Positions 23,751-31,700 of a stretch of 43,697 bases of DNA are shown in pieces. The stretch is taken from NCBI GenBank assembly GCA_014654705.1, contig JACVZY010000057.1, forward strand, positions 1 through 43,697, given 5' to 3'. This DNA is from Ignavibacteria bacterium (GTDB taxonomy: Bacteria > Bacteroidota > Ignavibacteria > Kapaibacteriales > UBA4661). The stretch's first letter is position 1. Each line of letters begins with the position of its first letter. Both the position numbers and the translations under genes were made by a program. The notes beneath the pieces were generated by a model. That model was given only the letters and a program-made list of their open reading frames with translations. It had not been told where the DNA came from and ran no database searches.

Positions 23751-24776
23751 TTACAAACTCTGAATCCAACCACGCGCCTCGCGTGCCGCGTAGGAGATGA
23801 CGATAGATGCTCCCGCTCGCTTGAAAGATGTCCACAGCTCAAGGTGTCCCGCACGGCGTTCTATCAGCCCTTCACGCGCAAGAAGCTCTATGGCGGCATA
23901 TTCTCCACTCACGTGATAGACCGCAAGCGGCGCCAAAATACGCTCGCTGAGGCGTGTTACGATATCCAAGTACGGTACAGCAGGCTTGACCATGATAATG
24001 TCCGCACCGTCGGTAATGTCTCGCTCTGCCGAGGCGAGCGCATCCGACAGATTAAATGGTGAGAGTTGGTAGGTTGTGCGCCCTTGAAGCTGCACCGTAG
24101 CACTCGGTGCGGACTTGCACACATCACGAAAGGGTCCGTAAAACGCAGACGCAAATTTGCTGGCGTAACTCATCACTGCAACGTGGTCGAAGTTATTTGC
24201 ATCCAGCACTGTGCGAATGGCGTGTATTCTGCCATCGCTCATGTCACTTGGTGCAATACAATCCGCCCCTGCCTCTGCAAGACGAAGTGCATATTCAGCG
24301 AGCGTATAAACGGTTTCGTTGTTGAGCAGCCTCGCGCCGTCCGCGCTCAAAATACCGCAGTGTCCATGTTCGGTATAGCTGCACAAGCACAGATCACACG
24401 CCAGCCAAACATCAGCACCAAATCTACGTTTGACGGCAGCGACGACCAAAGCAGCAAAGTCAAAATCTGCACCGTGCGGATGGTGTGATTTTCCTGACGG
24501 TACGGGAAACAACAAAAATTTTCTTACCCCGGCAGCAATATCGTTCCCCACGCTTGCGATAACGCTCTCCAGCGTTTCCGAAAATATGCCCGGCATACCG
24601 CTTGATTCCTTGCGTTCACTCAGGCTTTCATCCACAAAAAGCGGCTGTATGAAATCACGATAGTCGAGTGTTACCGAAGCAGCAAGTTCGCGGATGTGGG
24701 CGTTTGCACGCAAGCGACGGTGTGTGGCAGGATAGTGAGCATCACCTAAAGCGTGTTGTGATGACGTGTTCGCCAT
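23751..24776 (-). CDS. hemB: Delta-aminolevulinic acid dehydratase (porphobilinogen synthase)
   Basis: A 341-residue HemB that condenses two ALA molecules to porphobilinogen. Both Schiff-base lysines are present: Lys207 (SYASKFASAFYGPFR) and Lys264 (IMVKPAVPYLD). The active-site metal triad is Cys130, Cys132 and Cys140 (DLCLCSYTEHGHC), so this is the zinc-dependent form rather than the Asp-rich magnesium form. The N-terminal arm ends in RRLRANAHIREL. The start overlaps the hemCD end by 31 bp, so the two are translationally linked. It is the last gene of the ALAS-hemCD-hemB operon. Confidence 0.97.
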   Translation of the reverse strand: MANTSSQHALGDAHYPATHRRLRANAHIRELAASVTLDYRDFIQPLFVDESLSERKESSGMPGIFSETLESVIASVGNDIAAGVRKFLLFPVPSGKSHHPHGADFDFAALVVAAVKRRFGADVWLACDLCLCSYTEHGHCGILSADGARLLNNETVYTLAEYALRLAEAGADCIAPSDMSDGRIHAIRTVLDANNFDHVAVMSYASKFASAFYGPFRDVCKSAPSATVQLQGRTTYQLSPFNLSDALASAERDITDGADIIMVKPAVPYLDIVTRLSERILAPLAVYHVSGEYAAIELLAREGLIERRAGHLELWTSFKRAGASIVISYAAREARGWIQSL

Positions 24777-26323: not shown

Positions 26324-27532
26324 TTAAATGGACGACGACGACACAGAATCAAGTGTTTGAGCAAGTGCTGAAGCCAGATGCCGCATTTGCGCTTCCGAAT
26401 GGCGAAGCGTTACGGTGAGACGCAAACACTCTTCTCCTTCGGGAACAGTCGGAAAATTAATTGGCTGCAAGTATGCGCCATGTTCGTGCAAGAGTATATC
26501 TGCAATAGCCTTGCACCGTGCGGCATTACCAATGAAGATGCGTGTGATGTGCGAGGGATTGTCGTCAAAAGGGACAGAGTGCTCGCGTAAGATACGGCGA
26601 AAAGAGCGCACGTGCGCTTGATATGCCTCTTGCAAGCCAGATTGGGAGCGGACTTTTTCTACACTGGTCAGCGTCGCGGCGCAGAGTGCAGGCGGTAAGG
26701 ATGTGGTAAAAATAAAACTTGGCGCAAAACTGCGCACGTAGTCTATGAAAAGAGCGCGAGAAGCAATGTAGCCGCCAAGAGTGCCAAAGCCCTTCGCAAA
26801 TGTACCGTTTATCATATCTACTTGCCCTTCGCCGACGTGCTCCTCTACCAAGCCCGCCCCGCCGCGACCATAGACAGCGACGGCGTGCACTTCGTCCACA
26901 TATGTCAGTGCATTGTAACGCTTGGCGAGACGGACAAATTCTTGGATGGGCGCAATAGTCCCTGCCATAGAGTACAACGACTCGAAAGCGATGATTTTCG
27001 GGCGTTCAAGCGGAAGTTCGCGCAGCAACGATTCCAAATGCTCGGCATCATTATGACGAAAAATCTGTTTATCGCATCGTGCCAACTTGATTCCCTCAAT
27101 CATGGACGCATGATTACGTTCATCAGAAAGAATAATGCAGCCCGGAAATGCTTTGCCCAGCGTTCCCAATGCACCAAGATTTGCCATAAATGCACTACCA
27201 AAGATTAAGGCACTTTCTGTACCGTGGAGATTAGCCAGGCAGGATTCAAGGCGGTTGTGGTGAACGGTTGTGCCGGAGATATTGCGCGTCCCACCTGCTC
27301 CCACGCCGCTTTCTTCAGCCACGCGAACAAGCGATTGCAAAACATCGGCATCCAAACTCATGCAGAGATAATCGTTGGAACACCAGTTCAACGCAGTTTT
27401 CTGATGTCCGTCGGCATCTTCAAACGTAAATTCGGGAAAAGACTGAGCAGATTTTTGTACATTCAGGAAATAGCGATAACTGCCGCTCTGCTTGAGCGTG
27501 TCCAGATGGGCGTTCAAAATATTGTCGTACAT
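26324..27532 (-). CDS. hemA: 5-aminolevulinate synthase (ALAS, C4 pathway)
   Basis: A 402-residue PLP enzyme of the alpha-oxoamine synthase family that makes ALA from glycine and succinyl-CoA. Visible motifs are NWCSNDYLCM, GAGGTRNISGT, HHNRLESCLANLHG, YVDEVHAVAVYGRGGAG, and the PLP lysine Lys247 in NGTFAKGFGTLGGYIA. ALAS is separated from its relatives (KBL, BioF) by ESLYSMAGTIAPI, by HITRIFIGNAARCK, and above all by YLQPINFPTVPEGEECLRLT near residues 354-373. Two positions are less usual: AVAV for AVGL after DEVH, and Lys-Gly for Lys-Ala at the PLP site. The gene heads the hem operon, a place normally held by glutamyl-tRNA reductase outside Alphaproteobacteria. The symbol hemA is used in the ALAS sense. 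Confidence 0.92.
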   Translation of the reverse strand: MYDNILNAHLDTLKQSGSYRYFLNVQKSAQSFPEFTFEDADGHQKTALNWCSNDYLCMSLDADVLQSLVRVAEESGVGAGGTRNISGTTVHHNRLESCLANLHGTESALIFGSAFMANLGALGTLGKAFPGCIILSDERNHASMIEGIKLARCDKQIFRHNDAEHLESLLRELPLERPKIIAFESLYSMAGTIAPIQEFVRLAKRYNALTYVDEVHAVAVYGRGGAGLVEEHVGEGQVDMINGTFAKGFGTLGGYIASRALFIDYVRSFAPSFIFTTSLPPALCAATLTSVEKVRSQSGLQEAYQAHVRSFRRILREHSVPFDDNPSHITRIFIGNAARCKAIADILLHEHGAYLQPINFPTVPEGEECLRLTVTLRHSEAQMRHLASALAQTLDSVSSSSI

Positions 27533-27732
27533 ACCGAAATTCTTGAAGATGTTTTACGCGTCAAATATTTTTGCTGTAAAGCACAGCGCTTCATTCATAA
27601 ATGGCGAAAATTTGACCTTTTCATGCTTGAAGCGCTTGCCAAAAATACGGTTTATTTTGTCGTTTTGGTGGAATGTTGTGCAAACCCCTGAAAAGTCGTA
27701 GTTTTGTGCAGTTCACTTCACTCGAAATCTTT

Positions 27733-29633: not shown

Positions 29634-31700
29634 ATGACAATGAAAACTTCTTCCACAACAACCTCTGCCAATGCCTCCAAAACCGCTCCGAACGGACATT
29701 CTACGAACGAAAAATCCGCCAACGGCAGTAATGGTCATACTTACAAAAGTGCAGCCGTATTGGAATTAGAGGCATTATACGAAAAATGTAAGCAACAGCT
29801 TCATCACGAAACCGCGCATATCCTCGCAACGTGGCAGACGAAAAAAGAAAATTATCGAACTCCTCACTACACCTACTCTGTGCGCGGCAAAGAAATCAAA
29901 GTGGAGAATTTCACGGAATCGCTTTCACATCAGCAAATACCAAAAATTGGTGTTCCGCAGTTCGATGACTACGGCGAAGTCGTACGGTGGAGCATGACGG
30001 AAAATTTTCCCGGTGAGTTTCCTTACACCGCCGGCATTTACCCGTTCAAGCGCGAGGGCGAAGACCCGACGCGAATGTTTGCGGGCGAAGGCGCACCGGA
30101 GCGCACGAATAAACGCTTTCATTATCTCTCGGCAGGAATGCCCGCAGCCCGCCTCTCGACTGCCTTCGACAGCGTTACGCTCTACGGCGAAGACCCCGAC
30201 GAGCGCCCCGACATTTATGGTAAAATTGGCAATTCGGGCGTTTCAATTGCCACGCTGGACGACGCAAAAAAGCTCTATTCCGGCTTTGACCTTTGCAAGC
30301 CCTCCACCAGCGTTTCGATGACCATCAACGGACCAGCACCGATGCTGCTTGCCTTCTTTATGAACGCGGCTATTGACCAGCAATGCGAGAAGTATATCCG
30401 CGAAAACGGCTTGGAAGCTGAGGTAAAAGCAAAAATTGCTGCAAAATATGCTGAACAAGGGGTTGCAACCCCTTGTTACGTGGGCGAACTTCCCGAAAGC
30501 AACGATGGGCTGGGACTGATGTTGCTTGGTGTGACGGGTGCTGATGTGCTGCCGTCGGACATTTACGACACCATCAAAGCCGACACCCTCAAGCAAGTAC
30601 GCGGTACGGTGCAAGCCGACATTTTGAAAGAAGACCAAGCGCAGAATACCTGTATTTTTTCGACGGAGTTTGCGCTGCGCATGATGGGCGACATTCAGCA
30701 ATATTTTATTGACGAAAAGGTGCGGAATTTTTATTCGGTTTCGATTTCGGGGTATCACATCGCCGAAGCGGGTGCAAATCCTATCTCGCAGCTTGCTTTC
30801 ACGCTTTCCAATGGCTTTACGTTTGTGGAATACTACCTGTCGCGCGGTATGAAGATTGATGATTTTGCGCCGAATCTTTCGTTCTTTTTCTCAAATGGTA
30901 TTGACCCTGAGTATTCAGTTATCGGGCGGGTGGCGCGCCGCATCTGGGCAAAGGCAATGAAAAACAAGTACGGTGCAAACGAGCGTTCGCAAATGCTGAA
31001 GTATCACATCCAGACATCGGGACGCAGCCTGCATGCTCAAGAGATTGATTTTAACGATATTCGCACGACGCTTCAGGCGCTCTACGCCATCTACGATAAT
31101 TGCAACTCGCTCCACACCAACGCCTACGACGAAGCAATCACCACACCGACCGAAGAATCCGTGCGCCGTGCCGTAGCGATTCAGCTTATCATCAACCGCG
31201 AACTGGGTTTAGCAAAGAACGAGAACCCACTTCAAGGCTCATTCATTATTGAAGAACTGACGGATTTGGTGGAAGAAGCCGTAATGACGGAATTCCGCAG
31301 AATCGCAGAGCGAGGCGGTGTGCTGGGTGCAATGGAAACGATGTACCAACGCAACAAAATCCAAGAAGAGTCCATGCACTACGAAATGCTCAAGCACACA
31401 GGCGAATTGCCCATCATTGGCGTAAACACGTACCTCCCGAAAGATAAACCCGCCTACACAGCACCCAAAGAGGTTATCCGCGCCACCGAAGAAGAAAAGC
31501 GGGCGCAAATTGCATCGCTCCGTGCCTTCCAAGCGAGGAATAATACGGTCTCTGGGGCAGCATTAAAACGCTTGCAAATGGCTGCTATCAACAATCAAAA
31601 TATCTTTGCGGAGCTAATGGAAGCGGCGAAGGTGTGCAGTTTGGGGCAGATTTCGGGGGCGTTGTATGAGGTTGGTGGGCAGTATCGGAGGAATATGTGA
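29634..31700 (+). CDS. IcmF-like acyl-CoA mutase, catalytic subunit only
   Basis: A 688-residue adenosylcobalamin-type acyl-CoA mutase subunit. From about residue 75 it matches the mutase part of the fused isobutyryl-CoA mutase IcmF ([67 protein letters not shown]). [40 protein letters not shown] and [20 protein letters not shown] follow. IcmF proteins are about 1,100 residues, with an N-terminal B12 domain and a MeaI-type GTPase. Here both are missing: no DxHxxG motif and no Walker A. The protein opens with a Ser/Asn-rich stretch (1-38) and the IcmF linker. It must pair with a separate B12-binding subunit, or be inactive. No such partner lies in the window. The substrate is probably isobutyryl-CoA/n-butyryl-CoA, less likely methylmalonyl-CoA. 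Confidence 0.9.
30454..30477. repeat. 24-bp perfect palindrome inside the mutase gene
   Basis: AACAAGGGGTTG at 30454-30465 is followed immediately by its exact reverse complement (30466-30477). It lies in frame in the mutase coding sequence and encodes EQGVATPCY at a surface loop between IAAKYA and VGELPES, where IcmF relatives vary. It would form a perfect cruciform or hairpin. Confidence 0.6.

Follow-up and report, generated by a model that had tools for sequence, protein, structure and literature searches.

What does a 5-aminolevulinate synthase (ALAS) do at the head of a row of hem genes in a member of the Bacteroidota? The gene lies in the window, that is, the whole stretch of DNA analysed (43,697 nucleotides; contig JACVZY010000057.1 of assembly GCA_014654705.1, from an Ignavibacteria bacterium), and a sequence-only reading had proposed that it heads a heme operon in which it took the place of glutamyl-tRNA reductase (GluTR). 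The analysis presented here points to another role, in which a mobile ALAS-HemCD-HemB module quite probably makes uroporphyrinogen III for siroheme and not for heme.

The ALAS-HemCD-HemB cassette

The cassette comprises three genes and a presumed promoter region:

26324..27532, minus strand: ALAS (5-aminolevulinate synthase), cassette gene 1, from TIGR01821, PDB matches and active-site residues
24746..26299, minus strand: HemC-HemD fusion, with hydroxymethylbilane synthase at residues ~1-302 and a uroporphyrinogen III synthase fold at ~312-514, from TIGR00212 and the predicted fold
23751..24776, minus strand: HemB (porphobilinogen synthase), from NF006762 and Pfam ALAD
27533..27672, no strand: 140-bp gap separating ALAS from the divergent hrcA, presumed to hold the cassette promoter, from gene layout

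The order ALAS, hemCD, hemB that had been read from the sequence holds, all three genes being on the minus strand with a gap of 24 bp between ALAS and hemC and an overlap of 31 bp between hemB and hemC. The cassette is flanked in the window by hrcA (divergent) and recO (convergent).

The ALAS open reading frame starts with ATG and encodes 402 amino acids. The protein scored 505.1 bits against TIGR01821, the NCBIfam ALAS model (cut-off 338.55), against 324.6 bits for BioF (cut-off 426.45) and 222.9 bits for KBL (cut-off 493), with scores for the SPT models also under their own cut-offs; these profile scores rule out a BioF, KBL, SPT or secondary-metabolite synthase identity. Its closest solved structures are themselves ALAS, namely 7x98, 2bwn from Rhodobacter capsulatus and human ALAS2 (5qqq). 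The QPINFPTVPEG stretch picked out earlier occupies residues 356-366, and the proposed PLP lysine, K247, aligns with K248 of 2bwn, presumably the PLP-binding lysine of that enzyme. For the active site we took R21, N54, T83, N85, S137, H142, D214, H217, K248, T365 and R374 of the R. capsulatus enzyme, with their assumed roles, and with the register set by the 2bwn alignment all 11 checked positions were identical in 6/6 aligned cassette ALAS. In a tree made by a quick method with 61 of 95 rows, the window protein was placed with ALAS, apart from BioF, KBL and SPT, on a branch (SH-aLRT 99) at which the programme warned of long branches meeting, and the Bacteroidota ALAS formed a separate group within ALAS (SH-aLRT 98 in the same quick tree). 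Among the best 80 matches listed, Bacteroidota ALAS were 45-51% identical to the 74 non-Bacteroidota loci. The closest named relative listed is a Candidatus Kapaibacterium MAG (89% ALAS identity), a genus assigned by NCBI taxonomy to the Bacteroidota, Eximiradiia, Eximiradiales, Kapaibacteriaceae, in keeping with the earlier impression of an FCB-type genome; the family sampled here (f1) is presumably Kapaibacteriaceae. Profile score, structural matches, residues and tree all agree with the call of a full-length ALAS, and judged by its sequence the window protein is a true ALAS, predicted to make ALA from glycine and succinyl-CoA. A second member of the family in the source genome (contig C71) scored best against an SPT model, under its cut-off.

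HemC(D) and HemB are 517 and 341 amino acids long respectively. The HemC part scored 197.6 bits against TIGR00212 (cut-off 164), and its residues D82 and C266, the latter of which we take to be the cofactor cysteine, are identical in 8/8 aligned rows. No HemD profile in Pfam or NCBIfam matched the C-terminal half of the protein. Foldseek with the whole predicted model (pLDDT 89) returned hydroxymethylbilane synthases and periplasmic-binding-like folds, with HemD absent from the top 50, so the C-terminal part was folded alone, which gave 10 hits at E<=0.001, all of them uroporphyrinogen III synthases (TM 0.36-0.63 by query). Residues 312-514 also superposed on HemD 4es6 (VIA-align Z 9.7, rmsd 3.7, 194 aligned), and the earlier name HemCD is upheld by this predicted fold. 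HemB scored 349 bits against NF006762 (cut-off 297) and 352 bits against Pfam ALAD. Since the ALAS, HemCD and HemB families are all present, the three genes could lead from glycine and succinyl-CoA to uroporphyrinogen III.

The supply of ALA and the end product

The source genome (G000) comprises 5.72 Mb in 118 contigs and is 99.19% complete. The GluTR dimerisation domain (GlutR_dimer, PF00745) was not found in it, nor in any of the 10 family genomes that include it, and the best HemL match, searched for in the source genome alone, reached 181.6 bits against a cut-off of 527.3. Because neither HemL nor the dimerisation domain was found, the organism most likely makes ALA by the C4 route, the usual one of animals and alphaproteobacteria, as had been supposed, although PF00745 is an incomplete test that can miss a GluTR, the order member G408 having a GluTR-like protein without a match to that domain. 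GlutR_dimer was found in 93/149 class genomes, a sample in which one of the 22 genomes of the order had it. The GluTR-like protein of G408 (L245:10193-11290, 365 amino acids) scored 127 bits against TIGR01035 (cut-off 209.55) in a match that stops short of the dimerisation part, and its gene clusters with those for HemC, HemB, HemL and HemH. ALAS over the cut-off was found in 3/296 phylum genomes (with up to six candidates scored per genome), 1/149 class genomes and 4/10 family genomes.

The heme end of the pathway was assessed with the ferrochelatase profile PF00762, which found no match in any of the four cassette-bearing family genomes (G000, G387, G385 and G383; 91-99% complete) and matched 10/123 order genomes and 8/14 control genomes. 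By the genes searched (ferrochelatase), the cassette is thus most likely not for heme, and the source cell would presumably import heme or do without it. The description of the locus as a heme operon is not supported, the source genome having instead a siroheme and sulfite-reductase operon on contig C1, where SUMT, CysJ, CysI, a CysG_N-TauE fusion and CysH are consecutive genes, with a TonB receptor beyond CysH and CysD further on; no CysN was seen up to the contig end. Here SUMT scored 267.5 bits (cut-off 185), CysJ 720.7 bits against TIGR01931 (cut-off 668.15) and CysI 743.3 bits against NF010029 (cut-off 457), with 742.3 bits against TIGR02041, just under its cut-off of 756.55. The CysG_N part scored 115.2 bits against TIGR01470 (cut-off 62.3) and was also matched by PF13241 and PF14824.

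Taken together, these families suggest a route in which ALAS would make ALA from glycine and succinyl-CoA, HemB would turn ALA into porphobilinogen, and HemCD would carry porphobilinogen via hydroxymethylbilane to uroporphyrinogen III. SUMT, encoded on the other contig, would then produce precorrin-2 and the CysG_N part of the TauE fusion siroheme, destined for CysI of the CysIJ sulfite reductase and so serving assimilatory sulfate reduction from sulfate to cysteine. The order of steps follows family membership and general knowledge, and catalysis and flux to siroheme are predicted from enzyme families, genes present or not found, co-occurrence, neighbourhoods and tree conflict. Cobalamin (B12) was considered as an end product and set aside: the SUMT profile TIGR01469 had three matches in the source genome, SUMT itself and two proteins of RsmI type, no corrin methylase was seen among these matches, and corrin synthesis is not indicated because the other two matches are RsmI-type. 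The window also encodes (29634-31700, plus strand) an acyl-CoA mutase (MM_CoA_mutase, 688 amino acids), IcmF-like but below the IcmF cut-off and presumably B12-dependent, in a genome without a sign of corrin synthesis in the SUMT-profile search.

Within the family, ALAS, HemB and SUMT occur together in 4/10 genomes and none of the three occurs in the other six (Fisher p 0.005, uncorrected for kinship). Across the order, HemB was found in 22/123 genomes and SUMT over the cut-off in 18/123; 17 of the 22 HemB genomes have SUMT (G433 with ferrochelatase as well), four have ferrochelatase without SUMT (G405, G408, G160 and G436) and one has neither (G423). Counting against a simple rule, G465 has SUMT over the cut-off without a HemB match, and five order genomes (G384, G441, G196, G456 and G458) have ferrochelatase without one; G465 and G423 also weigh against the siroheme reading. 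In G384, a congener without HemB, ALAS or SUMT over the cut-off, the ferrochelatase is part of a 530-amino-acid fusion with DUF454 (L249:6100-7692), perhaps for porphyrin salvage.

The link to siroheme recurs in gene neighbourhoods. In G383 the cassette stands ahead of SUMT-CysJ-CysI-CysG_N-CysH on the same strand, and in two genomes of another class it lies with CysI, CysJ-like, SUMT, CysK, CysE-like and CysN genes (G150) or with SUMT, CysD, a NirA-like reductase under the NirA model's cut-off and, by sight, a CysN-like neighbour (G292). Three named loci (L131, L133 and L134) have ALAS near SUMT, CysI or NirA-like, CysD/N/H or CysG_N matches, and a fourth (L135) has a CysG_N match alone. Sulfate-assimilation or siroheme genes lie near ALAS in 7/11 Bacteroidota loci (G383, G150, G292, L131, L133, L134 and L135) against 4/74 others (L146, L150, L164 and L206; Fisher p 1.8e-5), and both HemC and HemB in 9/11 against 1/74 (L193), counts in which loci are non-independent, flanks are of unequal length, Bacteroidota proteins served as queries, the contig scan contributed its best 80 matches and the 74 are mostly, though not all, alphaproteobacterial. 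Of the 11, the window, G387, G385 and L132 lack such sulfur genes nearby, and the position of the cassette away from cys genes in the window, G387 and G385 counts against the siroheme reading. In L134 (Chitinophagaceae bacterium UBA3961) ALAS lies between a NirA-like reductase and a CysG_N-TauE gene, and no hemCD or hemB match was found in this 19.4-kb locus. In G383 a weakly MazF-like gene, below model cut-offs, and an HTH_17 gene (L095:15555-16216) separate ALAS from hemCD.

Origin of the cassette and rival explanations

The history of the cassette departs from that of the genes it would feed. SUMT, CysI and CysG_N track taxonomy, with G000, G387 and G385, all of one genus, 83-90% alike and 67-71% alike to G383; their joint tree recovers the genus as a clade (100/100) and rejects a grouping of G383 with G385 (p-AU 0.00031). 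The cassette runs against taxonomy, G000 and G385 being 52-65% alike and G383 and G385 64-72%, and its concatenated tree rejects the genus as a single clade (p-AU 0.00063). Mis-binning could fake part of this conflict, since the cassette of G385 lies on a contig of 9.1 kb in an assembly of 680 contigs and the G387 record is a MAG. The genes next to the cassette vary among relatives, and a branch (92/90, not starred) sets its HemBs apart from the other HemBs of the order, with L193, a very long alphaproteobacterial row, falling on the cassette side. Because HemB is mostly not found in the order and the cassette and cys-operon trees conflict, the cassette was likely gained horizontally as a mobile module. 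Phage as the carrier was rejected for the genomes seen here, the cassette occurring in none of the 80 viral ALAS loci listed.

That the cassette is instead long established in the family, with losses from six of the 10 genomes, is unlikely, if a serious contender. A branch does set the four family cassettes apart (concatenated tree 100/100, HemB 100/98), but among them G385 groups with G383, a member of another genus, in conflict with the cys-operon tree, neighbouring genes differ, and HemB was not found in 101/123 order genomes. The same count makes gain likelier than what the sequence-only reading had put forward, an in-situ replacement of GluTR by an ALAS that heads a heme operon. That scenario would account for ALAS heading hemCD-hemB in a genome where HemL and GlutR_dimer were not found, but GlutR_dimer was found in 0/10 family genomes, ferrochelatase was not found, and the C5 operons seen in the order (G160 and G408) encode HemC as a separate protein and a HemB from a different lineage; with HemB in just 22/123 order genomes and varying cassette neighbours, we regard it as very improbable. 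Contamination of the assembly by another organism's contig is more improbable still. Two congeners, G275 and G283, are without the cassette genes, as a foreign contig would predict, but a third, G387, carries these genes in identical order, with most long open reading frames at 79-97% protein identity over ~20 kb, and the GC content of the window contig (0.489) is close to that of three other stretches of the source genome (0.485-0.486).

A cassette that still serves heme, either with a ferrochelatase that has diverged beyond the reach of PF00762 or by conversion of siroheme to heme via Ahb, is improbable, somewhat more so than an old cassette. Heme synthesis does require the upper pathway, but PF00762 is able to detect ferrochelatase in the order and the controls and found none in the cassette genomes of the family, where the cassette tracks SUMT, not ferrochelatase.

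The siroheme reading extends, as more likely than not though with rather less assurance than for the module itself, to a history in which bacteria that had lost heme synthesis regained tetrapyrroles solely for siroheme by plugging a mobile ALAS-HemCD-HemB into sulfate assimilation; this would give the C4 route a role apart from heme and would have spread among Kapaibacterium-like and Chitinophagaceae-like Bacteroidota.

Related systems and accompanying observations

The alphaproteobacterial and mitochondrial ALAS (2bwn and 7x98) belong to the same family, TIGR01821, with the same checked active-site residues. The Bacteroidota ALAS differ from them as a separate group, in having HemC and HemB nearby (9/11 against 1/74, the 74 being from the best 80 matches listed) and in an apparent end product that would be siroheme, not heme. 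The C5 heme operons of the same order share hemC and hemB with the cassette: G160 (L244) has GluTR, HemC, HemB, HemL and HemH in one run of genes, and the set in G408 (L245) is similar, the GluTR-like protein standing in for GluTR. They differ from it in their GluTR or GluTR-like protein and HemL, an unfused HemC, a nearby HemH and another HemB lineage. Certain archaea that use the C5 route offer a further comparison, the cassette genome having ALAS instead. In the available part of one account these archaea probably make uroporphyrinogen III just for siroheme, cobalamin or F430 (PMC3004389), and like the cassette genome they would have uroporphyrinogen III but no heme branch, along with genes for SUMT and precorrin-2 dehydrogenase. 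Phage-borne AlaS genes, studied together with HemO and bilin reductase genes in the part available of PMC11480375, resemble the cassette in placing ALAS on mobile DNA; among the 80 viral ALAS loci listed no HemB, SUMT or cys genes were found near ALAS, and hits were confined to one partial match to HemC and, inside the ALAS gene, five weak ones of HemL type.

Bacterial ALAS is placed in the alphaproteobacteria in the available parts of two papers (PMC7242693; PMC11480375). Among the matches listed, in titles and the beginnings of abstracts and with most subscription papers outside the search, none tied ALAS to siroheme and none described an ALAS from Kapabacteria or Chitinophagaceae. The enzymes belong to known families; no C4 route reserved for siroheme came up in the literature searched. 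If the Bacteroidota cassette is coupled to siroheme, the choice between C4 and C5 would be made per end product, and the cassette would represent a natural three-gene route to uroporphyrinogen III. For annotation, ALAS, hemC and hemB in a genome need not mean that heme is made.

The siroheme operons have features of their own. In 4/4 scanned proteins, which come from siroheme operons of Kapaibacterium-like bacteria and Chitinophagaceae, CysG_N was fused to a TauE/SafE permease:

L240:14068-15768: CysG_N-TauE/SafE fusion of the source genome (contig C1)
L095:6403-8022: CysG_N-TauE/SafE fusion of G383
L131:13720-15207: CysG_N-TauE/SafE fusion
L134:11266-12753: CysG_N-TauE/SafE fusion
L240:9136-9214: SUMT leader, upstream of SUMT on contig C1 of the source genome; also in L242, L241 and L095

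The leader, ~100 bases long and lying upstream of SUMT, is conserved in the four SUMT-bearing family genomes. In G000, G387 and G385 it holds an inverted repeat of 13 nt without mismatch, TGTGTAACTAAAA/TTTTAGTTACACA; there is another small stem, and just 1/27 predicted pairs is changed on both sides. Rfam gave no match to the G000 leader up to E 1, and one tRNA in another search, and no regulatory word or leader common to the upstream regions of ALAS and SUMT was found, which counts against the siroheme reading. The SUMT leader could act as an operator, or it could be a sulfur-related RNA not described so far. In another family of the order (f5, e.g. G418 and G463), 13/14 SUMT hits over the cut-off lie in open frames of 505-531 amino acids, which may be SUMT-HemD fusions.
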